Assembly (NCBI GenBank): GCA_947448955.1
Contig: CANFPU010000016.1
Location: forward strand, 1-42,536
Source of the DNA: Burkholderiales bacterium
GTDB taxonomy: Bacteria > Pseudomonadota > Gammaproteobacteria > Burkholderiales > Burkholderiaceae_C
DNA length: 42,536 nucleotides
Direction: 5' to 3'
Part shown: positions 4,797 through 27,387 of the stretch, piece after piece
How the letters are laid out: every line of letters starts with the position of its first letter
Position numbering within the stretch: position 1 is the first letter of the stretch
Made by a program: the position numbers and the translations under genes
The notes under the pieces: model-generated
Told to the model about the DNA's origin: nothing
The model's input: the letters and a program-made list of their open reading frames with translations, nothing else
The model's database searches: none

Positions 4797-5682
4797 CGAG
4801 GCGGTCGCAGCCACAGGCGAATGGGCCTGGGCCACCGACATGCTGCGCCAGCAGCTGGGTCCGCTGTTGCCCGGGTTGACAGTCGAGGTGGTCGCGAGCA
4901 TCGGGTCAACCAACACCGAGCTGCTGGCGCGCGCCAAGCGATTTCCAGCAAATATCCAGCCTTGCCTTTTGGTGGCCGAGCAGCAGACTCAAGGCCGTGG
5001 CCGCCAAGGCAAGGGCTGGCAGTCAAGCGCCGGCGCATCGTTGACCTTCTCGCTGGCGCTGGCGCTGGCCCCCGCAGACTGGTCCGGCCTGTCACTGGCG
5101 GTTGGCTTGGCACTGACCGAAGCCCTGGACCCGCCACGCCCTGGACAGTTGTCCCGGCTGGGCATCAAGTGGCCGAATGATCTGCTGCTGCGCGAACTTG
5201 AGGCCGAGCCAGCCATCGGCCGCAAGCTCGGTGGCATCCTGATCGAGACCATACAAATTGGCCAGCAGCGCGTCGCCGTGGTCGGCGTGGGCCTGAACCT
5301 GGTAGCACAGCGTGTCGATGACCCGAGCTGGGGCTATGGATGCTTGCAGGAGCTAGACCCTGATCTGAGCGCCACGAAGGCGCTGGCACGGGTGGCAGAG
5401 CCGCTGGTGCGCGCTTTGCAAGACTTCGAGCGCTCAGGTTTTGCACCGCTGCGCCAGCGCTTCGCCGAGCGCGACCTGTTGGCAGGCCGCGCCGTCACCA
5501 CCACCTTGCCAGATTTGCCGCGCGGCGTGGCCGACGGTGTTGACGACAGCGGCACCCTTTGGCTGCAAGTGGCTGGCAACGCCGGCGACAGCTCGCGCTG
5601 GCCCGTGCGCAGTGGCGAGGTCAGCCTGCGACCTGCGCGCGGTACCCTGCGCAGTGTCGAGACCGAGGAGCGATCGTGCTGA
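4780..5682 (+). CDS. birA: Biotin--[acetyl-CoA-carboxylase] ligase
   Basis: The product is about 300 residues from GTG 4780, which overlaps the end of the SET gene by 17 nt. ATG 4840 is an alternative, but it leaves little before the conserved ligase core. The enzyme makes biotinyl-AMP and attaches biotin to the carrier subunit of acetyl-CoA carboxylase. Visible motifs are GRGRQGKGW (72-80), which binds biotin and adenylate, KWPND (130-134) and the lysine in GRKLGGIL (K149). There is no N-terminal winged helix, so this is a monofunctional ligase without the repressor role of the E. coli protein. The stop overlaps the start of the next gene (GTGCTGA). Confidence 0.93.
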   Translation: MRQRPDEAVAATGEWAWATDMLRQQLGPLLPGLTVEVVASIGSTNTELLARAKRFPANIQPCLLVAEQQTQGRGRQGKGWQSSAGASLTFSLALALAPADWSGLSLAVGLALTEALDPPRPGQLSRLGIKWPNDLLLRELEAEPAIGRKLGGILIETIQIGQQRVAVVGVGLNLVAQRVDDPSWGYGCLQELDPDLSATKALARVAEPLVRALQDFERSGFAPLRQRFAERDLLAGRAVTTTLPDLPRGVADGVDDSGTLWLQVAGNAGDSSRWPVRSGEVSLRPARGTLRSVETEERSC

Positions 5683-6488
5683 GAATCGTTGCGATGGTTC
5701 TGTTGCTGGCCAACGCGCTGCTGTTGACGGCCATGTTGCTCGGCGGGTTTGACAGGCTCAGCGACAGCGCGACAGGCGCACAAGCGCAGCGCGAGCCTCA
5801 AAGGTTGCAGCGCCAGGTTGACCCTGGCGCGGTACAAATCCTGCCGCCCCAGGCAGCCAGCGCAGCGCTCATGGCGGCCGCTGCATCGGCAGCCGAAACG
5901 GCGGCCCAAGCTGCCGCGGCGGCCTGCTTGGAAGCCGGACCGTTCAACGATGCCGATGCCGAGGCCGCCGAGCGAACGCTGCGCGATGCCGGCGTGGCGG
6001 CCGGCAGCTGGCAGACCCGCAAGACCGAGGTCAGCGGCGTTTTCATGGTCTACATGGGCCGCTACACAGATCCCGAAACCTTGCAGCGAAAACGCGAAGA
6101 GCTCAAGCGTCGCAAAGTCGAGGCTGAGACCATCAGCGACGCCGCTGACCTGCAGCCGGGCTTGAACCTGGGCCGCTTCGACGACAAGCGCTCAGCCGAC
6201 GCCGCGCTGGCCTCACTGATGAAGCGGGGCGTGACCAGCGCAAAAGTCATCATGTTGCGTCCGGCCCATATCCTGATCAGATTCGGCAGCCCTGACGCTG
6301 CCACCCGCGCGAGGCTGGCCGGCTTGCCGATGCCGGTGGGGCCCGGTTTTGTGAGTTGCGCGTCGCCAGCCAATGTCGGCGCTGCCGCCAACGCAGGCAA
6401 GGCTGGCGCGAACGTCGAGAACACCACCGCCAACCCTGGCTCGCCACCAGCCAAGCAGGCTGCCCCATCGTCTGCCGCCAAACGCTGA
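5676..6488 (+). CDS. Membrane-anchored SPOR-like protein
   Basis: The product is 270 residues from GTG 5676, which overlaps the birA stop by 7 nt and so suggests translational coupling. Residues 4-23 are a hydrophobic anchor (LRIVAMVLLLANALLLTAML), followed by an Ala-rich linker. From C84 (CLEAGPF) to about residue 215 there are two repeats of the SPOR kind (VYMGRYTDPETLQRKREEL and LGRFDDKRSADAALASLMKRG). SPOR domains bind denuded septal peptidoglycan. The C-terminus is a low-complexity Ala/Asn/Pro tail. In relatives a type III pantothenate kinase gene often sits between birA and the SPOR gene; it is absent here. The gene converges on the subtilase gene with a 30-nt gap. Confidence 0.75.
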   Translation: MLRIVAMVLLLANALLLTAMLLGGFDRLSDSATGAQAQREPQRLQRQVDPGAVQILPPQAASAALMAAAASAAETAAQAAAAACLEAGPFNDADAEAAERTLRDAGVAAGSWQTRKTEVSGVFMVYMGRYTDPETLQRKREELKRRKVEAETISDAADLQPGLNLGRFDDKRSADAALASLMKRGVTSAKVIMLRPAHILIRFGSPDAATRARLAGLPMPVGPGFVSCASPANVGAAANAGKAGANVENTTANPGSPPAKQAAPSSAAKR

Positions 6489-6518: not shown

Positions 6519-9500
6519 TCAGGTGCGGCGCCGCGCCAGCAAGCCGACTGCAGCCGCGAGCCCGATCAACCAGCCAATGCCCAGCGCGCCACCCCCGCCA
6601 GCCGGCGGGCTGCCCATGCCACTCGGTGCATCTGCCGTCGCGCCACTGCCCAGCGCAAAGCGCCGGGTAGGTTCAGCGCCCGACACGGGCCCGGTGTTGG
6701 CGACCGCGGCCGTCAAAGTGGCAGTCGCGCTGGCACTGTTTGAACTGGCGTCGGTCACCGTGAGCGTCAGCCCATAGTCGCCCGCCAGATCGACTGTGAA
6801 GACCGCCATGGCCGCGGTCGAGTCCTTCAACACGGCAACACTGCCGGCAGGTCTAGCATCCAGCGCCCAGACGTGACTCAGCGAGCTGCCCACCACATCG
6901 CCACGCAGCACGGCGACCAGACCGACGTTGGCCGCTGCCGAACTGCCAATGCCGGCCTTCAGTGCCGGAACCTGGCCCGGATTGAGCGGGTCAACGACGA
7001 CCGGCCCGCCACCAGAGGCGTTGAAGAACAACCACTGAGGGCTCGGCGAATCCAGTCCGACGACGCGCTTCAAAACCGCGATCGCATCAGCCAACTCGAT
7101 CTTGCCGTTGCCATCGAAGTCGGCGGCAAACAGCTGATAAGGCGTGACGCTCGGCCCACCACTGTTCAGGTCTAGGCCGACAATCAGTCTGAGGATCGCC
7201 ACCGCATCTTGAAGGTTGATGGCCTGCTGAACAAGTAACGGGTATGCGATCGAAATCGATTGACTGGTGCTGCTGGTGACGCCGGCGCTGTCGGTCACGG
7301 TCAGACTGACCACCACAGTGCCGGCTGAAGTGGTCGCCAAGGTCACAGTCTTGCCCGTGGTCGGGCCTGTGAAATTCGCCAACCCGGCACCGCTGGCGAG
7401 GGTCCATTGGTAGGCCGCGATACTGCGACCTGCGCCCGCCGCCGACGCGCTGGCGTCCAGCGTGATGCTGGCGCCCGCCGAAGCCGGCGTCGCTGACACG
7501 GTGATCAAGGCCGTCGGCGCCGCTACCACCTCGATGGATTGGGTGATGGTGCGAACCCCGCCAGCACTGTCGATGACCGTCAGGCTGACAACCACCGTGC
7601 CCGCTGCGCGGGTCGCCAACACCGCCGTGGCGGCATTGCTCGCCCCGGTGAAACTCGCCGCGGTGGCACCGCTGATGATCGCCCATTGGTAGCCAATGAT
7701 CGTGCGGCCCGCAGCCGCCGATGACGCAAGACCGCTGAGCGAGACCGCTGACCCGGCAGTGGGTATCGCGGCGGACAGCGCAATCGCTGCCGTTGGCGCC
7801 GCTGCGACATTGATCGCCTGCGTGGCGCTGCGAACCGCCCCCGCGCTGTCGGTCACCGTCAGGCTGACCACCACGGTGCCAGCAGCGCTGGTGGCCAGCG
7901 TCGCAAGGTTGGTGTTGGTGGCGCCGCTGAAATTGGCAAGCGCAGCGCCGCTGGCGATGGCCCATTGGTAAGCGACGATCGAGCGCCCAGTGGCGGCGGA
8001 CGAGCCGCTGCCATTCAGACCGAGGGTCGCGCCCGCCGTGGCATTGACACTGGCTGACGCAATCGACGCCACGGGCGCCGCCGCGATATTGACCGACTGT
8101 GTCACCGTTCGCGTGGCGCCCACACTGTCGGTGACCGTCAGGCTGATGACCACCGTGCCGACGGCCGTGGCCGCGAGCGTGACGCTGCTACCGTCAGTCG
8201 CCCCGGTGAAACTTGCCAGCCCGGCACCACTGGCGATGGCCCACTGGAAGCCAGCGATCGTGCGGCCGGCGGTGGCCGATGATGCGCTGCCGTTCAGCGT
8301 GACCGGGTCGCCCACGGTGGCCGCCGCGTTGGCCAGCGAGATGACCGCATTGGGCTGCGAGGGCGAGGCCTGAGCCCGCGCAACCGCCGCCCCCGCATCC
8401 AGCATCCCGGCACCACAGGTCTTGGTGGTGCAGTAACACTCGAGCTGCTCGATAGTGCTGGGCGCTCTGCAGGCCAGCACCGCGGCATCGGCCCCACCGG
8501 TGGTCGGAAACGGCCGCGCCGTGACTTGCAGTGCGGCCTTGACCTGCGCTGAGGTCAGCGTCGGGTCGACCGACAGCATCAGCGCTGCCGTGCCCGCCAC
8601 CAGCGGTGCGGCAAAGCTGGTGCCCACGGTGATGGTGTAGCTGTCGCTGTAGCTATTGGCGCCAGGCGCCGTGGTCCCGGTGTTGCGGGTGGTCAGCAAT
8701 GAATAAAGGCAGGGCGAGCCGCTGGCGGTGTTCACGCAGTTGCCCGCAGGCGCGGCGATCGCGACCTCGGGCCCGATGCTGGAATAACCGACCTTGGTGC
8801 CCGCATGGCGCAAGCCGGCGACCGCAATCGCCCCAGGGCAATTGGCCGGCGTGTTGACGGCCAAACCGGTCTCGTTGCCTGCAGCCACGACGACCGTGAC
8901 GCGGGCTGCCAGCAACTGCGACAGGATGGATTGATAGTCCGGGCCGCAACTGCCGGTCGAGCCCAGGCTCAGGTTGATGACCTGGGCCGGGTGCGGATTG
9001 GATACCGGGTCGCTGCTGAGTCCGGCAGCCCACAGCATCGCGGCCTGGATGTCGGAGTCGTAGCCGCCGCACTTGCCCAGCACCCGCACCGGCAACAGCA
9101 TCACCTTGCGGCCGACGCCGGCCATGCCGATACCGTTGTCGGTGGCCGCGCCGATCAAGCCAGCGGTTTCGGTGCCATGCCAGCTGCTGGCAGAGGACCC
9201 GCCGCAACCCTCCCGCGCCGTGGTCCAGTCGCCAGGATCGCTGGCGTCGGCATCGCGGCCACCACCGTCGGATGCGGTGGAAACATCGCTGACGAAATCG
9301 TAGCCCGGCCACAACTTGCCGACCAGGTCGGGGTGGTCGAAGCGCACGCCGGTGTCGAGCACCGCGACCGTGATCGCAGGCGACCCGAGGGTCAGCGCCC
9401 AGGCTGCCTCCGCATTGATCGCCGAAACCGTGGCGCTGTCGGGCGCCCGCAGGTACCACTGGCCCACCAGCGGGGTGATGCCGGTCTGGTTGGCAGCGTA

Positions 9501-9908
9501 ATACGGATCGTTCGGCACCACCGCATGGATGTGCCGGCGCTGGTCGACCACTGCCCACTCGACGTCGGGCTGGGCCGTCAACCGCGCAGCGAGCTGCGTC
9601 GACGACAAGCCCTTGCCATGCAAGCCCTGGGTATGCGGACCCAGCGGCCGACCGTCGGCCAATGGCAGCGACAGACGTTGGCCCAAAGGACCCGCATGCT
9701 GGGCTCGGCCAGCGGCGATGCCTGATCGCACCAGCGCGCTGCCAGCACGGAACTTGACGATCACGCGCGCGTTGTTGGGGTCCTCTGCGACCGGTGCGCC
9801 GCTACGAGGCGCTGGTCCGCGCTCGCTGAACACGGCACCCGGCAACCACGCGATCAGCAGCAACGCAAGCCAGCGAACAACCCGCTGTTTGATCGTTCTC
9901 GAAGCCAT
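6519..9908 (-). CDS. Secreted subtilisin-like (S8) serine protease with four Ig/PKD-like repeats, a dockerin-like module and a GlyGly-CTERM-like tail
   Basis: The product is 1129 residues from ATG 9908, which has AGAGG 11 nt upstream; a GTG three codons earlier is too close to that site. A basic N-terminus and hydrophobic segment (VVRWLALLLIAWLPGAVF) form a signal peptide, followed by a propeptide. The catalytic triad is D185 (VAVLDTG), H244 (WHGTETAG) and S431 (GTSFAAPLVAG), with oxyanion N345. Four 93-residue beta-sandwich-like repeats cover 518-889. Next come two dockerin-like helices, INLQDAVAILRLIVGL and, after the calcium loop DFDGNGKIE (930-938), LADAIAVLKRVVGL. A further Ig-like region leads to a C-terminal Gly run, hydrophobic helix and RRR. 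That tail matches GlyGly-CTERM signals cut by rhombosortases, so the enzyme is probably processed and exported or surface-released. Its substrate is unknown. Confidence 0.9.
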   Translation of the reverse strand: MASRTIKQRVVRWLALLLIAWLPGAVFSERGPAPRSGAPVAEDPNNARVIVKFRAGSALVRSGIAAGRAQHAGPLGQRLSLPLADGRPLGPHTQGLHGKGLSSTQLAARLTAQPDVEWAVVDQRRHIHAVVPNDPYYAANQTGITPLVGQWYLRAPDSATVSAINAEAAWALTLGSPAITVAVLDTGVRFDHPDLVGKLWPGYDFVSDVSTASDGGGRDADASDPGDWTTAREGCGGSSASSWHGTETAGLIGAATDNGIGMAGVGRKVMLLPVRVLGKCGGYDSDIQAAMLWAAGLSSDPVSNPHPAQVINLSLGSTGSCGPDYQSILSQLLAARVTVVVAAGNETGLAVNTPANCPGAIAVAGLRHAGTKVGYSSIGPEVAIAAPAGNCVNTASGSPCLYSLLTTRNTGTTAPGANSYSDSYTITVGTSFAAPLVAGTAALMLSVDPTLTSAQVKAALQVTARPFPTTGGADAAVLACRAPSTIEQLECYCTTKTCGAGMLDAGAAVARAQASPSQPNAVISLANAAATVGDPVTLNGSASSATAGRTIAGFQWAIASGAGLASFTGATDGSSVTLAATAVGTVVISLTVTDSVGATRTVTQSVNIAAAPVASIASASVNATAGATLGLNGSGSSAATGRSIVAYQWAIASGAALANFSGATNTNLATLATSAAGTVVVSLTVTDSAGAVRSATQAINVAAAPTAAIALSAAIPTAGSAVSLSGLASSAAAGRTIIGYQWAIISGATAASFTGASNAATAVLATRAAGTVVVSLTVIDSAGGVRTITQSIEVVAAPTALITVSATPASAGASITLDASASAAGAGRSIAAYQWTLASGAGLANFTGPTTGKTVTLATTSAGTVVVSLTVTDSAGVTSSTSQSISIAYPLLVQQAINLQDAVAILRLIVGLDLNSGGPSVTPYQLFAADFDGNGKIELADAIAVLKRVVGLDSPSPQWLFFNASGGGPVVVDPLNPGQVPALKAGIGSSAAANVGLVAVLRGDVVGSSLSHVWALDARPAGSVAVLKDSTAAMAVFTVDLAGDYGLTLTVTDASSNSASATATLTAAVANTGPVSGAEPTRRFALGSGATADAPSGMGSPPAGGGGALGIGWLIGLAAAVGLLARRRT
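7242..8357 (-). repeat. Four tandem 279-nt repeats within the subtilase gene
   Basis: Landmark sequences around CCATTGG recur at 7404, 7683, 7962 and 8241, exactly 279 nt apart each time. Units run 8357-8079, 8078-7800, 7799-7521 and 7520-7242 and encode 93 residues each. The first unit (8357-8079) has diverged most at the landmark (CCACTGG). Each encodes a VSLTVTDSAG-like strand and a YQWAIASGA core, typical of Ig/PKD-like folds. The even length and similarity imply recent duplication or ongoing homogenisation. Confidence 0.85.
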
Positions 9909-9930
9909 TGCCAGCACACCCTCTTGAGGA

Positions 9931-9982: not shown

Positions 9983-13064
<3,082 letters not shown>

Positions 13065-21482: not shown

Positions 21483-24248
21483 ATGACCATGCCCTCAGCC
21501 CCGCAGAAGCCAGAGCCATCCGGCGCCAGCGCCGACCACAGCCGGTTCGTCCAGCGGGTGCGCCGGCGCTACGCCGCCGAGCTGCCGCTGTTGCCGCCCG
21601 GCCTGCCCGATGCGTCCACGCTGACTGACCTGGCCCAGCAGCTTCAGGCCCAGGGCCGGCCGCTGGCCTCGGCCTTGAGGGTACTACGGCAACTCGTGCT
21701 TGAACGTCTGACGGTGCTCGATATAGAGCATTCCGCGACGCTGGATCAGGTCACCAGCACGATGACGCTGCTGGCCGAGGTGACGCTGGAAATTGCGTTG
21801 GTCGCCGCCCGCGCCGATGAAGATGCACGCTGCGGACCGCCTTTGGATGCGAAAGGCCAGCTGATCGACTTCTGGATCATCGGCATGGGCAAGCTCGGCG
21901 CACGTGAGTTGAACGTGTCCTCCGACATCGACCTGATCTACGTCTATGAAGACGATGGCCAGACCGCCGGCGTACCGCCCGGCACTGCCCAATCCAGCGT
22001 CAGCGCCCACGAATACTTCAGTGGCGTGGCCAAGCGCCTGTATGCGCTGGTCGGGGACACGACTGACGACGGTTTCGTGTTCCGCGTTGATTTAGCACTG
22101 CGTCCGAACGGCAACTCAGGTCCGCCGGTGGTCAGCTTGGCGATGCTGGAGGAATATTTCCTGGTGCAGGGCCGCGAGTGGGAGCGCTTCGCCTGGCTCA
22201 AAAGCCGGGTGATCGCGCCGCACGCCGCCGTGGCTTCAGGCCGGGCGCTGCCGCTGCGGGCGTTGGTCACGGCCTTCGTTTACCGACGCTACCTGGACTA
22301 TGGCATCTTCGAGAGTCTGCGTCAGTTGCATCGCAAGATTCGCGAAGAGGCTCAACGCCGAGCGGCAGGTCGACCGGAGCGCGCCAATGACGTCAAGCTC
22401 TCGCGCGGCGGTATCCGCGAGATCGAGTTCATCGTCCAGTTGCTGCTGGTGGTGCGTGGTGGACAGTTCCCCGAGATCCGCACCCGATCCACGCTGACCA
22501 GCCTACAGCGTTTGTCGGGACGCGGGCTGATGAAGCCCGAAACCGCGCTGAAGCTGGCCGAGGCCTATGACTTTCTGCGTCGGGTCGAGCACCGGATCCA
22601 GTATTTAGACGACCAACAGACCCATTTGCTGCCGACCGCCGATGCCGATTTGGCATGGATCGCGCGCTCGCTAGGAATGAGTGGCCGGGCGTCAGCTTGC
22701 AAGTTGCTGGACCGGCTGTGTCAGATCCGCGAATTGGTGGCCACCGAGTTCGATGCCCTGTTGCACGATGGCCAATCTCCCGCGAACCAAGCGCGCAATG
22801 GCTGCAAGCAATGCGGCGCGATGCCATTGGCCATCGACAGCGACGCGCTGGTCGACAAGTTACCGCTCGCGCTGGCTGAGCGGGTGCGGGTCTTGCGCGC
22901 CCACCCGAGGGTGCAGAACCTTCGCGACGAAGCCAGGCTGCGCCTGGGCAAGCTGGTCGAGCGTGCGGCAGCCTGCCTGGCAGACAGCGGCTGCACCGAG
23001 GCGGCCGCGCTGCGCTTCATCGACTGGCTCGAACCTTTGCTGCGCCGCGACAGCTACATCGCGCTGCTGGTAGAACGACCAGAGGTGATGCGCAGATTGC
23101 TGCGCCTGCTGGGCCTCGCGCGCTGGCCGATGCAGTACTTGATGCGTCACCCGGGCGTGATCGACGAGCTGGCCGACCCCAGGCTACTGCATCAGCGCTT
23201 CGACCCCGTCGAGTACCCCCGAAACCTCGACGAGCGCCATTTCGCCTGGCGACGAGCTGGCGAGGACCACGAGGATGCGCTGCTCGACACGCTGCGCCAC
23301 GCCCACCATGCCGAGGTCTTTCGCACCTTGGTCCGTGATGTCGAAGGCCTGCTAACGGTCGAACAAGTGGCTGACGACTTGTCGGCCTTGGCCGATGCAA
23401 CACTGGACTGCACGTTGCGCTGGGCTTGGCCGCGACTGCGCCAGCACCACCGAGAGCAACCACAATTTGCCGTCATCGCGTATGGCAAGCTCGGCGGCAA
23501 AGAACTGGGCTATGGCAGCGATCTGGATGTGGTCTTCCTTTATGACGATGCCGACGAGCCCGATCCCGAAAGGGCACAGGAGGTGTATGGCCACTTCGTC
23601 CGCAAAATCATCGCCTGGCTGACACTGCGCACCGCCGCAGGCGAGCTGTTCGACATCGACACCGCGTTGCGCCCGAACGGCAATTCAGGCTTGCTGGTCA
23701 CGTCAATCAGCGCATTTGAACGCTACCAGGTCGGCCGCGGCAGCAACACCGCCTGGACATGGGAACACCAGGCCCTGACTCGGGCCCGGTTTTGCGCGGG
23801 CTCGCCAGACTTGGGCCTGCGCTTCGACGCCGTCAGGCGCCAGGTGCTGGCGGCGCCACGCGATGCGGCGGCCTTGAAACGCGAAGTTCTCGAGATGCGC
23901 GCCAAGGTGCGCGCAGCGCGACCGATCAAGCCCGGCCGGTACGATGTCAAACACAGCCCGGGCGGCATGATGGATGCGGAGTTCGCGGTGCAGGCACTGG
24001 TTTTGGCAGAGGCTGCAACGCACCCCAGCTTGCTCGCCAACGCCGGTAATATCGCGCTGCTGCAACGCACCGAAGCGCAAGGACTGCTGCCGGCCGGCAT
24101 CGGCGAGGCTGCGGCGACGGCCTACCGTGAGCTGCGTCGGGCACAGCACGGCGCAAGGCTCGACGAACGACCGACACAGTTCGATCCCGAGCTTCTGGCG
24201 AACGAACGCGACGCGGTGCTGGCCTTGTGGCGCGCGGTTTTCGGCTGA
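21483..24248 (+). CDS. glnE: Bifunctional glutamine synthetase adenylyltransferase/adenylyl-removing enzyme
   Basis: The product is 921 residues from ATG 21483. The enzyme adds AMP to, or removes it from, glutamine synthetase according to the nitrogen signal relayed by PII. Two nucleotidyltransferase domains are visible. The N-terminal deadenylylating one has GMGKLGARELNVSSDIDL (134-151; D148 and D150), and the C-terminal adenylylating one has YGKLGGKELGYGSDLD (667-682; D680 and D682). Both metal-binding pairs are intact. The length is close to the family norm of about 940. The rhombosortase-like gene starts 9 nt after the stop. Confidence 0.97.
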   Translation: MTMPSAPQKPEPSGASADHSRFVQRVRRRYAAELPLLPPGLPDASTLTDLAQQLQAQGRPLASALRVLRQLVLERLTVLDIEHSATLDQVTSTMTLLAEVTLEIALVAARADEDARCGPPLDAKGQLIDFWIIGMGKLGARELNVSSDIDLIYVYEDDGQTAGVPPGTAQSSVSAHEYFSGVAKRLYALVGDTTDDGFVFRVDLALRPNGNSGPPVVSLAMLEEYFLVQGREWERFAWLKSRVIAPHAAVASGRALPLRALVTAFVYRRYLDYGIFESLRQLHRKIREEAQRRAAGRPERANDVKLSRGGIREIEFIVQLLLVVRGGQFPEIRTRSTLTSLQRLSGRGLMKPETALKLAEAYDFLRRVEHRIQYLDDQQTHLLPTADADLAWIARSLGMSGRASACKLLDRLCQIRELVATEFDALLHDGQSPANQARNGCKQCGAMPLAIDSDALVDKLPLALAERVRVLRAHPRVQNLRDEARLRLGKLVERAAACLADSGCTEAAALRFIDWLEPLLRRDSYIALLVERPEVMRRLLRLLGLARWPMQYLMRHPGVIDELADPRLLHQRFDPVEYPRNLDERHFAWRRAGEDHEDALLDTLRHAHHAEVFRTLVRDVEGLLTVEQVADDLSALADATLDCTLRWAWPRLRQHHREQPQFAVIAYGKLGGKELGYGSDLDVVFLYDDADEPDPERAQEVYGHFVRKIIAWLTLRTAAGELFDIDTALRPNGNSGLLVTSISAFERYQVGRGSNTAWTWEHQALTRARFCAGSPDLGLRFDAVRRQVLAAPRDAAALKREVLEMRAKVRAARPIKPGRYDVKHSPGGMMDAEFAVQALVLAEAATHPSLLANAGNIALLQRTEAQGLLPAGIGEAAATAYRELRRAQHGARLDERPTQFDPELLANERDAVLALWRAVFG

Positions 24249-24256
24249 AGGCTGCG

Positions 24257-24850
24257 GTGCTCAAACGGCCCAGTTTGGCCTGGTGGCGCTTGAGCGCGCT
24301 GGCAGCAGTCGGTGCATTGGCAGCGCTGGCCATCGACCCCGCCCGATTGCGTTGGCAGCCCGAACTCGCAGGGACGGAGCCTTGGCGTTGCATCACTGCC
24401 GCCTGGGTTCACTGGAGTGGCCTGCACCTGGCGGCCAACTTGCTCGGGACAACGCTGGTCGCCGCCCTCGGTACGGTGGCGGGTTGCGGCCGGCGCGCCA
24501 CGCTGGCCTGGGCGATGGCCTGGCCGATCAGCCACCTGGCACTGCTGCTTCAGCCCGAGCTCAACAGCTACGGGGGCCTGTCGGGCCTGCTGCATGCGGG
24601 TGTCGCGGTGGCCGGCTGGCAACTGCTGCGCGGTGAGCGCGGCCAGCGCCAAGCCGTCGGGGCGGCGATGCTGGTCGGGCTGGCGCTCAAGATGATGCTC
24701 GAAGCACCTTGGGAAGGCCCGCTGCGAACCGTCTCCGGCTGGGACATCGCGATCGCCCCGATGGCCCACGCCAGCGGCAGCGCCGCCGGCTTGCTGTGCG
24801 CGCTGGCCTGCGGTGTGGGCAAGCCAGCGGGCGGCAGAATGGCTGGTTAG
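24257..24850 (+). CDS. rrtA: Rhombosortase-like rhomboid intramembrane serine protease
   Basis: The product is 197 residues from GTG 24257, with GAAGG (24247-24251) 5 nt upstream; an earlier GTG at 24227 overlaps glnE and lacks such a site. It is a compact polytopic membrane protein. The catalytic serine is S109 in YGGLSGLLH and the histidine is H171 in MAHASGSAAG. The W50-V-H52...H57...N61 element (WVHWSGLHLAANLLG) precedes them as in rhomboids. This minimal form with GLSG-LLH matches rhombosortase, which cleaves GlyGly-CTERM tails of secreted proteins. The subtilase at 6519-9908 carries such a tail. It sits directly after glnE and may share its transcript. Confidence 0.85.
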   Translation: MLKRPSLAWWRLSALAAVGALAALAIDPARLRWQPELAGTEPWRCITAAWVHWSGLHLAANLLGTTLVAALGTVAGCGRRATLAWAMAWPISHLALLLQPELNSYGGLSGLLHAGVAVAGWQLLRGERGQRQAVGAAMLVGLALKMMLEAPWEGPLRTVSGWDIAIAPMAHASGSAAGLLCALACGVGKPAGGRMAG

Positions 24851-24860
24851 CATCGACCCC

Positions 24861-25760
24861 ATGGCTGAGCGAAGAACAAACCTCGACGGCGTGGCGGTTG
24901 CCACCTTGCTGCTGTGCTGTGCGCTATGGGGGCTGAACCACGTGGCGACCAAACTCACGCTGAACAGCGTGCCACCGCTGATCCAGGCCGCCGTCCGATC
25001 CCTCGGTGCAGCACTGTTGGTCGCGCTGTGGGCCCGCTTGCGTGGGCTGTCACTGTCGCCGCGCAATGGCACGCTGGGCGCCGGGCTACTGGCCGGCATA
25101 CTGTTCGGACTGGAGTTCGGCTGCATCTTTGTGGGCCTGCAGTTCACCAGCGCCTCGCGAATGGTCGTGTTCATCTACGCAGCACCCTTCGTGGTCGCGC
25201 TGGGCATGCCGCTGGTGGCCAAGACCGAACGGCCGGGCCTGTTGCAGTTGCTGGGCTTGGCAGCGGCGCTGTGCGGCGTTGCCTGGGCTTTTGCTGAAGG
25301 ATTGACGGGCGGCGGCGACCGCCAGTGGCTAGGCGATGCCTTGGGCGTGGCCGCAGCGCTGCTATGGGGCGGTACGACGTTGGTGATCCGCGGCAGCCGC
25401 CTGGCCAGTGCATCGCCTGAACAGACCTTGTTCTACCAGCTCGGCGTGTCGGGGCTGCTGCTTTTCGCAGCCTCGCTGGCCTTGGGGGAGGTCTGGCCTG
25501 CACCGGGCGCACTGGGCGCACAGCCACTGCTGCTGATGGCTTTCCAGACCGTGATCGTGACTTTCGTCAGCTACTTGCTGTGGTTCTGGTTGGTGCGTCA
25601 CTACCCGGCGACCCAGGTTTCGTCGTTCACGATGCTAACACCACTGTTCGGCCTGCTGGCGGGCGTGCTGCTGCTCAGCGAGCCGCTTACGCTACGGCTG
25701 GCGGTAGCCTGCGGCGCGGTGATTGCGGGCATCGCGCTGGTCAACCGACCGCAGCGCTGA
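24861..25760 (+). CDS. DMT superfamily (EamA) transporter
   Basis: The product is 299 residues from ATG 24861, 10 nt after the preceding stop. It has about ten hydrophobic segments arranged as two EamA halves; the first half opens with CCALWGLNHVATKLTLNSVPP and the second with AAALLWGGTTLVIRGSRL. The C-terminal half ends SSFTMLTPLFGLLAGVLLLSEPLT, typical of the family. DMT exporters move amino acids or other small metabolites across the inner membrane; the substrate cannot be inferred from the sequence. Confidence 0.92.
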   Translation: MAERRTNLDGVAVATLLLCCALWGLNHVATKLTLNSVPPLIQAAVRSLGAALLVALWARLRGLSLSPRNGTLGAGLLAGILFGLEFGCIFVGLQFTSASRMVVFIYAAPFVVALGMPLVAKTERPGLLQLLGLAAALCGVAWAFAEGLTGGGDRQWLGDALGVAAALLWGGTTLVIRGSRLASASPEQTLFYQLGVSGLLLFAASLALGEVWPAPGALGAQPLLLMAFQTVIVTFVSYLLWFWLVRHYPATQVSSFTMLTPLFGLLAGVLLLSEPLTLRLAVACGAVIAGIALVNRPQR

Positions 25761-26520: not shown

Positions 26521-27387
26521 TCAGGCGGGTTGGGCGCCGGTATCCCGCGCCAGCGCCGCGAGCCGCAGCGTCACTTCCTTGCGGTAGCGGTTGAGCTCCT
26601 GCACGCTGGCAAAGCTACGCTCCATCAGCAGGCTCATGTTGTGCAGGATGCGGTCGACGACCTTGCTCTCCCAGACGCTGTCGAACTGAATCTGCTGGTC
26701 CAGCCAATGTTCAAGCCAAGCGGGGTCGGGTAGCCGACTCTGCACCGTGTCGCGCGGAAACAGCGACTGATTGACATGCAAATTGGTCGGGTGCAACGCC
26801 TGCGCGGTGCGCCGGGCACTGCCCATCAACACGCCAACCTTGGCGAACGCGGCGCGCGCCTCGTCCCCAAACTTTGTCAGCGCACGCTTCATGTACCGAA
26901 GGTAGGCGCCGCCGTGGCGAGCCTCGTCGCGCGCCAGGGTTTCGTAGATCTGGCGGATCACCGGTTCGGTGTGCCATTCGGCGGCACGCCGATACCAGTG
27001 GTTCAGACGGATCTCACCACAAAAATGCAGCATCAAGGTCTCTAGCGCGGGCGCCGGATCAAACTCAAAACGAACCTCGTGCAGTTCAGCTTCGGTGGGT
27101 ACCAATTCGGGGCGAAAGCGGCGCAGGTATTCCATCAACACCAGCGAGTGCTTCTGCTCCTCAAAGAACCACACACTCATGAAAGCCGAAAAATCGCTGT
27201 CATCGCGGTTGTCGCGAAGGAACATCTCGGTGGCCGGCAGCGCCGCCCACTCAGTGATGGCGTTCATCTTGATGGTCTGAGCCTGCGCCTCGCTCAGCTG
27301 GCTGTTGTCGAAGCTGGCCCAAGCGATGTCGCTGTCCATGTTCCAACGCACGGCTTCGAGCTGCTTGAAAAGTTCGGGGTAAAGCAT
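26521..27387 (-). CDS. Ferritin-like diiron protein
   Basis: The product is 288 residues from ATG 27387. It carries a full set of class-II diiron ligands on a helical scaffold: E46, E77-x2-H80 (FFEEQKH), E125 (or E116), and E155-x2-H158 (RDEARH). That pattern is shared by ferritin-like oxidases, ribonucleotide-reductase R2 and acyl-ACP desaturase-like proteins. Length and pattern fit a large ferritin-like oxidase rather than a storage ferritin. There is no signal peptide. The reaction is unknown; fatty-acyl or aromatic oxidation are options. It lies downstream of corA on the same strand but is separated from it by a repeat-rich gap. Confidence 0.75.
   Translation of the reverse strand: MLYPELFKQLEAVRWNMDSDIAWASFDNSQLSEAQAQTIKMNAITEWAALPATEMFLRDNRDDSDFSAFMSVWFFEEQKHSLVLMEYLRRFRPELVPTEAELHEVRFEFDPAPALETLMLHFCGEIRLNHWYRRAAEWHTEPVIRQIYETLARDEARHGGAYLRYMKRALTKFGDEARAAFAKVGVLMGSARRTAQALHPTNLHVNQSLFPRDTVQSRLPDPAWLEHWLDQQIQFDSVWESKVVDRILHNMSLLMERSFASVQELNRYRKEVTLRLAALARDTGAQPA

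Follow-up and report, generated by a model that had tools for sequence, protein, structure and literature searches.

A rhombosortase and a subtilase with a variant GlyGly-CTERM tail as a probable enzyme–substrate pair in a Burkholderiales bacterium

The 42,536-nucleotide stretch of DNA analysed here (hereafter the window; contig CANFPU010000016.1 of the Burkholderiales bacterium assembly GCA_947448955.1) very likely carries enzyme and substrate of a rhombosortase/GlyGly-CTERM system, with a single target as far as the assembly shows. The enzyme is a rhombosortase encoded after glnE; the substrate would be a secreted subtilase, encoded nearby, whose C-terminal tail the rhombosortase very probably trims. 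The most likely reading is that of a dedicated rhombosortase–substrate pair that places the subtilase on the cell surface, cleavage being a prediction. The system itself is already known, and what differs here is a tail form that is missed by the curated model.

The rhombosortase gene (24257–24850, plus strand) begins 8 bases past the stop codon of glnE (21483–24248, plus strand; NF008292, 900 bits, cut-off 487), its conserved upstream neighbour, and is followed by an EamA transporter gene (24813–25760, plus strand; PF00892, 114 bits) that is probably an incidental neighbour. The open reading frame has a GTG start, with an alternative GTG upstream at 24227 giving 207 amino acids, and encodes a 197-residue protein with six transmembrane helices. 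S109 lies within YGGLSGLLH and H171 within MAHASG; these two are the catalytic residues, and H113, four positions from the serine, is the rhombosortase-type residue, His rather than Tyr or Phe. The protein scores 93.8 bits against the rhombosortase model TIGR03902 (curated cut-off 84; 93.6 bits in the genome search) and 28.4 bits against Pfam Rhomboid (cut-off 22.6). In an alignment of this protein with 52 relatives, each of the 53 rows matches TIGR03902 (E ≤ 0.001), and W43, R44, H52, H57, G107, S109, G110, H113, H171 and G174 are invariant throughout, with N61 present in 52 rows. The AlphaFold model (pLDDT 94.0, pTM 0.90) adopts the six-helix rhomboid fold, with helices at residues 7–25, 55–75, 79–98, 109–126 (beginning at S109), 130–149 and 168–184 (containing H171) and a short helix at 44–50. 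A preliminary description of this DNA had proposed a polytopic protein of the rhombosortase type, with these two motifs, after glnE, and each of those points holds. In a PF01694 search of its own assembly (4.54 Mb in 324 contigs, 95.16% complete, 6.47% contamination), the gene is the sole rhomboid found, and no GlpG was found. A second TIGR03902 match in this genome, on contig C146 (21.4 bits), was set aside as a Cons_hypoth698 protein (PF03601, 220 bits) that the PF01694 search did not find.

The probable substrate is a secreted subtilase of the S8 family (6519–9917, minus strand), recognized from its open reading frame, Pfam matches and sequence reading. Its catalytic domain (8517–9377, minus strand; PF00082, 157 bits) contains Asp185, His244 and Ser431, which sit in what we take to be the subtilase motifs. 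By eye and by hydrophobicity, the N terminus is a signal-peptide-like stretch with a basic start and a hydrophobic core (9822–9908, minus strand). The protein also has PKD repeats (K319L-like in Pfam), a dockerin-like stretch (7065–7223, minus strand) that at 12.3 bits lies below the Pfam cut-off of 22.9, and a GlyGly-CTERM-type tail (GG tail; 6522–6611, minus strand). The C-terminal end reads PAGGGGALGIGWLIGLAAAVGLLARRRT, that is, GGGG, a hydrophobic stretch and RRRT, with no Cys among the last 40 residues. Further hydrophobic stretches lie inside the domains, the strongest of all (2.17) being that of the tail. The ending in a Gly run, a hydrophobic helix and RRR is thus as first described, on the minus strand, the strand having been left unstated. 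In a separate observation, residues of about 806–1115 share 40–62% identity, in parts of the dockerin-like and following region, with five proteins of the same genome (C263:2050-4242, C53:1987-5073 and proteins on C154, C39 and C49). The five, which include a member of glycosyl hydrolase family 10 (PF00331, 292 bits), all lack a GG tail.

The tail has the GlyGly-CTERM features as described in PMC3237569, namely a Gly-rich stretch without Cys, a hydrophobic helix and a basic extreme C terminus in a protein with a signal-peptide-like start. The GlyGly-CTERM model TIGR03501 nevertheless gave no match to the whole subtilase or to its last 35 or last 64 residues, and it gave 7.5 bits against a cut-off of 15.5 for the isolated 30-residue tail. 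MYXO-CTERM (TIGR03901) scored 9.8 bits on the isolated tail, nominally above TIGR03501 and below its own cut-off of 20; no PEP-CTERM model was listed for the tail, which has no PEP motif. The preliminary assignment to GlyGly-CTERM therefore stands for the layout and the lack of Cys and falls short of the curated cut-off, and the MYXO- or PEP-CTERM match that it had named as contrary evidence did not appear above cut-off. What places the tail is its likeness to those of relatives. The tails of 32 subtilases of the family align as SxGGGGAxGxxWLLxLxxA...RxRR. A profile of all 32 recovers the window tail at E 2.1e-10, and a profile built from the 31 others scores it at 39.5 bits, or 30.2 bits within the whole protein. 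No shuffled tail reached 39.5 bits, either among 2,000 full shuffles (best 12.4) or among 2,000 in which GGGG was kept (best 17.3). Leave-one-out scores across the 32 tails range from 9.8 to 55.2, and two tails are weak because they score 9.8 and 16.9. At E ≤ 10, MYXO-CTERM matches 27 of the 32 and GlyGly-CTERM 14. In a TIGR03501 search of 120 genomes of the family at E ≤ 1, the GG-tailed subtilases over the cut-off were four (G043, G062, G108 and G119). The curated test would wrongly reject the window tail.

With the family profile at E ≤ 0.1, the genome of the window contains one GG tail of this type. Two TIGR03501 matches elsewhere in that genome were rejected: the one on C148 is internal to a 460-residue protein of cytochrome-b561 type (PF01292), well away from the end, and the one on C116 is at the start of a 120-residue frame. 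The genome also encodes a type II secretion cluster (GspD 568, GspE 674, GspF 453, GspG 183, GspK 225 and GspL 135 bits, all over cut-off) and, as a second C-terminal sorting system, an exosortase (C54:12160-12870; 241 bits, cut-off 105.55).

We analysed the co-distribution of enzyme and tail in 120 genomes drawn from the family, among which the sole genome of the same genus (G011) has the rhombosortase. A TIGR03902 match over cut-off occurs in 47 genomes, and 15 with lower scores (57.7–82.2 bits; G037 at 44) were kept by motif or position, giving 62 rhombosortase-positive genomes. G039 (68.3 bits), G054, G068, G097, G099, G103 and G109 were left out because of a GlpG-like GASGxxF motif, as were G009 (50.8 bits, SAAVW), G020 (22.9 bits) and G110 (20.5 bits). 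The catalytic Ser is present in 60 of the 61 positives read (all except G076), G015 being the exception, and the residue at +4 is His in 56 of them, Tyr in G022, G069, G071 and G083, and Met in G082. Sixty genomes were scored tail-positive, either by a profile match at E ≤ 1e-3 or by a GG tail seen on direct reading, together with G071 and G040, whose tails were found only by looking beside their rhombosortases. Both components occur in 57 genomes, the rhombosortase only in 5, the tail only in 3 and neither in 55 (Fisher p 4e-24, shared ancestry ignored); if G071 and G040 are instead taken to lack the tail, the counts become 55/7/3/55. With three genomes lacking a glnE match omitted, the same counts are 15/3/1/52 in 71 distant genomes (glnE under 67% identity; p 1.4e-11, shared ancestry ignored) and 42/2/1/1 in 46 near genomes (p 0.13, shared ancestry ignored). 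Thirteen weaker profile matches (E 0.003–0.1) in rhombosortase-negative genomes were read; 11 either lie away from the C terminus or run open; of the two C-terminal ones, that in G068 is preceded by VPEP, which we take to be a PEP-CTERM motif, and that in G018 by Pro-rich sequence lacking a Gly run.

A census of subtilase C termini, with one explicit rule applied to 108 places (five partial matches in the window's own genome and a contig-edge fragment in G115 excluded), found 62 with a GG tail, 32 without and 2 open in rhombosortase-positive genomes, and 2, 7 and 3, respectively, in negative ones. By genome, 49 of 54 positives pass the rule, and G052, G067, G074, G100 and G116 have profile matches at E 2.6e-5 or better. 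The GG tail is thus a property of particular subtilases, not of subtilases at large. One subtilase copy in G100 (C112) has several in-frame stops; a GG tail and the rhombosortase are still present in that genome.

The discordant genomes are few. Among those with the tail only (G043, G104 and G109), a contig end cuts glnE before the expected place of the rhombosortase in G043 and G109, and G104 (76% complete) has no glnE match. Those with the rhombosortase only are G015, G079, G083, G094 and G102. Of these, G083 and G102 are incomplete assemblies (85% and 65%), and in G094 the end of gapA lies 144 nt from a contig edge. G015, a single-contig genome in which no GG tail was found, has a rhombosortase-like gene after glnE (C1:277579-278031) that reads SYGLAGAVH, without the catalytic Ser, and from its sequence appears to be decaying or repurposed. 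In G079, also a single contig without a tail, D and Q replace H52 and H57. GG tails also occur on open reading frames outside the subtilase search (L193 in G005:C17; L192 in G091:C1:4214700-4217700; L005 in G071; L198 in G040), two of them beside rhombosortases, so other targets probably exist in some relatives.

The two genes occupy separate conserved sites. The rhombosortase lies within 600 nt after glnE in 46 of 62 genomes; in a genome scan queried with an alignment of 12 rhombosortases, 73 named loci out of 80 had 600 nt or more of upstream sequence, and the rhombosortase there follows glnE within 400 nt in 72 and at 423 nt in the remaining one. One locus from that scan (L217), on a contig labelled as a Bordetella parapertussis metagenome-assembled genome, encodes a rhombosortase 85% identical to that of the window; the label is probably wrong. 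The subtilase follows the glyceraldehyde-3-phosphate dehydrogenase gene gapA (9983–11002, minus strand, in the window; conserved upstream neighbour by family comparison); in 37 of 54 genomes the two share a strand and are no more than 3.5 kb apart. This count starts from 61 subtilase genomes with G027, G048, G082, G100, G103, G112 and G115 excluded, includes G046 via a second copy, and covers gapA matches merely 48–50% identical in G046, G060, G096 and G098. In the window the two genes are about 14.3 kb apart, so the separation of about 14 kb given in the preliminary description was right. Proximity is no evidence for the pairing, because glnE and gapA, where both are on one contig, lie within 100 kb of each other in most genomes of either kind (27 of 32 that have a rhombosortase and 17 of 22 that do not); the spacing is ordinary housekeeping synteny, with or without the pair. 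The pairing proposed in that description is instead supported by the co-occurrence, by the adjacency of subtilase and rhombosortase in four genomes (G032, G047, G051 and G063; 133–351 nt between match ends, in differing orientations) and by G103, the one near-group genome with neither rhombosortase nor tail. At the gapA site of G103 there is directly an open reading frame, then biotin-ligase and SET-domain genes, two families also encoded past the subtilase in the window; at its glnE site a cytidylyltransferase-type gene is followed by a ferritin/desaturase-type gene resembling window positions 26521–27387. Searches of these sites by tblastn found no subtilase, no match to any of 27 rhombosortases and no EamA gene. 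The loss at the glnE site is not gene-precise, since the EamA neighbour was not found there either, and the remaining rhomboid of G103 is GlpG-like (GASGGLF). A SPOR-protein reading of the window gene that comes after the subtilase (5559–6488) was rejected, as it has no Pfam match and no clear match to the G103 gene there.

Could the two genes merely share a genome, the rhombosortase serving other, unseen targets and the subtilase tail being an uncut, plain membrane anchor? We consider this unlikely. The ordinary synteny between glnE and gapA and the presence of more than one GG tail in several relatives fit such a view; the single tail in the window's own genome, the absence of both genes from G103, their adjacency in four genomes and the damaged rhombosortases of the two tail-less single-contig genomes, G015 and G079, count against it. 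It is still less probable that another sorting enzyme handles the tail, whether the exosortase on C54, which far exceeds its cut-off, or a myxosortase, whose MYXO-CTERM model matches more of the family tails than GlyGly-CTERM does at E ≤ 10. The tail has neither a PEP motif nor a PEP-CTERM match, lacks the Cys for MYXO-type processing, and tracks the rhombosortase in its presence.

Least probable of all is a housekeeping function for the 197-residue protein as an ordinary rhomboid of the GlpG type. The fold is shared and the similarity to GlpG is distant: all 20 Foldseek matches among solved structures at E ≤ 0.001 are GlpG chains (TM-score 0.50–0.64), and as the sole rhomboid found in the assembly the protein might also cover such roles. 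Against this, the GlpG models score it at 24.4 bits (TIGR04239, cut-off 250) and 22.5 bits (cut-off 335), so that the higher score in GlpG-type families that the preliminary description had envisaged as contrary evidence did not occur. Moreover, its SGLLH differs from the GASGxxF of eight GlpG-like hits in the family, and its type is missing from 58 of the 120 genomes.

The dedicated-pair reading draws on a known pathway. In V. cholerae, rhombosortase cuts VesB so that the second Gly of its motif becomes exposed and receives a glycerophosphoethanolamine group ahead of type II export (PMC6219818); later work places the rhombosortase cut within the transmembrane domain, with GlpG cutting elsewhere (PMC11389362). 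By analogy with VesB, from which we infer cleavage, C-terminal modification, export and surface location alike, the rhombosortase of the window would cut the GG tail of the subtilase, the new C terminus would be modified in the same way before type II export, and the exported protease would end up on the cell surface. If no GlpG gene has been missed by the assembly, there would be no competing cut. VesB itself is trypsin-like and not a subtilase. The Vibrio RssP/VesB system likewise combines a GG-tailed protease substrate with type II secretion, but Vibrio has six GG-tailed proteins and GlpG, whereas the genome here has one tail and no GlpG was found (PMC6219818, PMC11389362, PMC13393428). MYXO-CTERM and its myxosortase MrtX share a similar tripartite tail and type II secretion; the Cys invariant in that motif (PMC3237569, PMC11980579) is required there and lacking here, and MrtX is a CPBP protease (PMC11980579). 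A known betaproteobacterial protease resembles the subtilase in being a protease with a variant GG tail, yet the model of that tail gave no match to the window subtilase at E ≤ 10 and matches 3 of the 32 family tails. The closest precedent is the rhombosortase/GlyGly-CTERM system of Haft and Varghese (2011), with an enzyme over cut-off, His at +4 from Ser and a tripartite, Cys-less tail ending a secreted S8 protease; the window tail differs in falling below the TIGR03501 cut-off (PMC3237569). In that paper, the entries for Leptothrix cholodnii and Methylibium petroleiphilum show a single target and a rhombosortase marked 'distant', which resembles the arrangement seen here in target number and gene separation; the paper does not mention glnE, and its sections covered here do not describe the two gene sites (PMC3237569). 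Among the literature matches listed, it is the only paper on a rhombosortase/subtilase pair.

For the family, we favour with moderate confidence a reading in which the rhombosortase mainly serves one dedicated partner, a subtilase whose tail has a distinct form, SxGGGGAxGxxWLLxLxxA; the two genes occupy different conserved locations, behind glnE and behind gapA, respectively; they are present, lost and decaying together and escape the curated tail model; and the genome of the window, in which no GlpG was found, is a natural one-enzyme, one-substrate rhomboid system. Just a handful of this subtilase's tails across the 120 sampled genomes score above the cut-off of the standard GlyGly-CTERM model, so target counts in surveys that use it come out too low, and such rhombosortases seem to lack a partner. 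A tail profile like the one built here would close that gap, and environmental relatives of Rubrivivax probably offer a one-to-one rhomboid–substrate pair.
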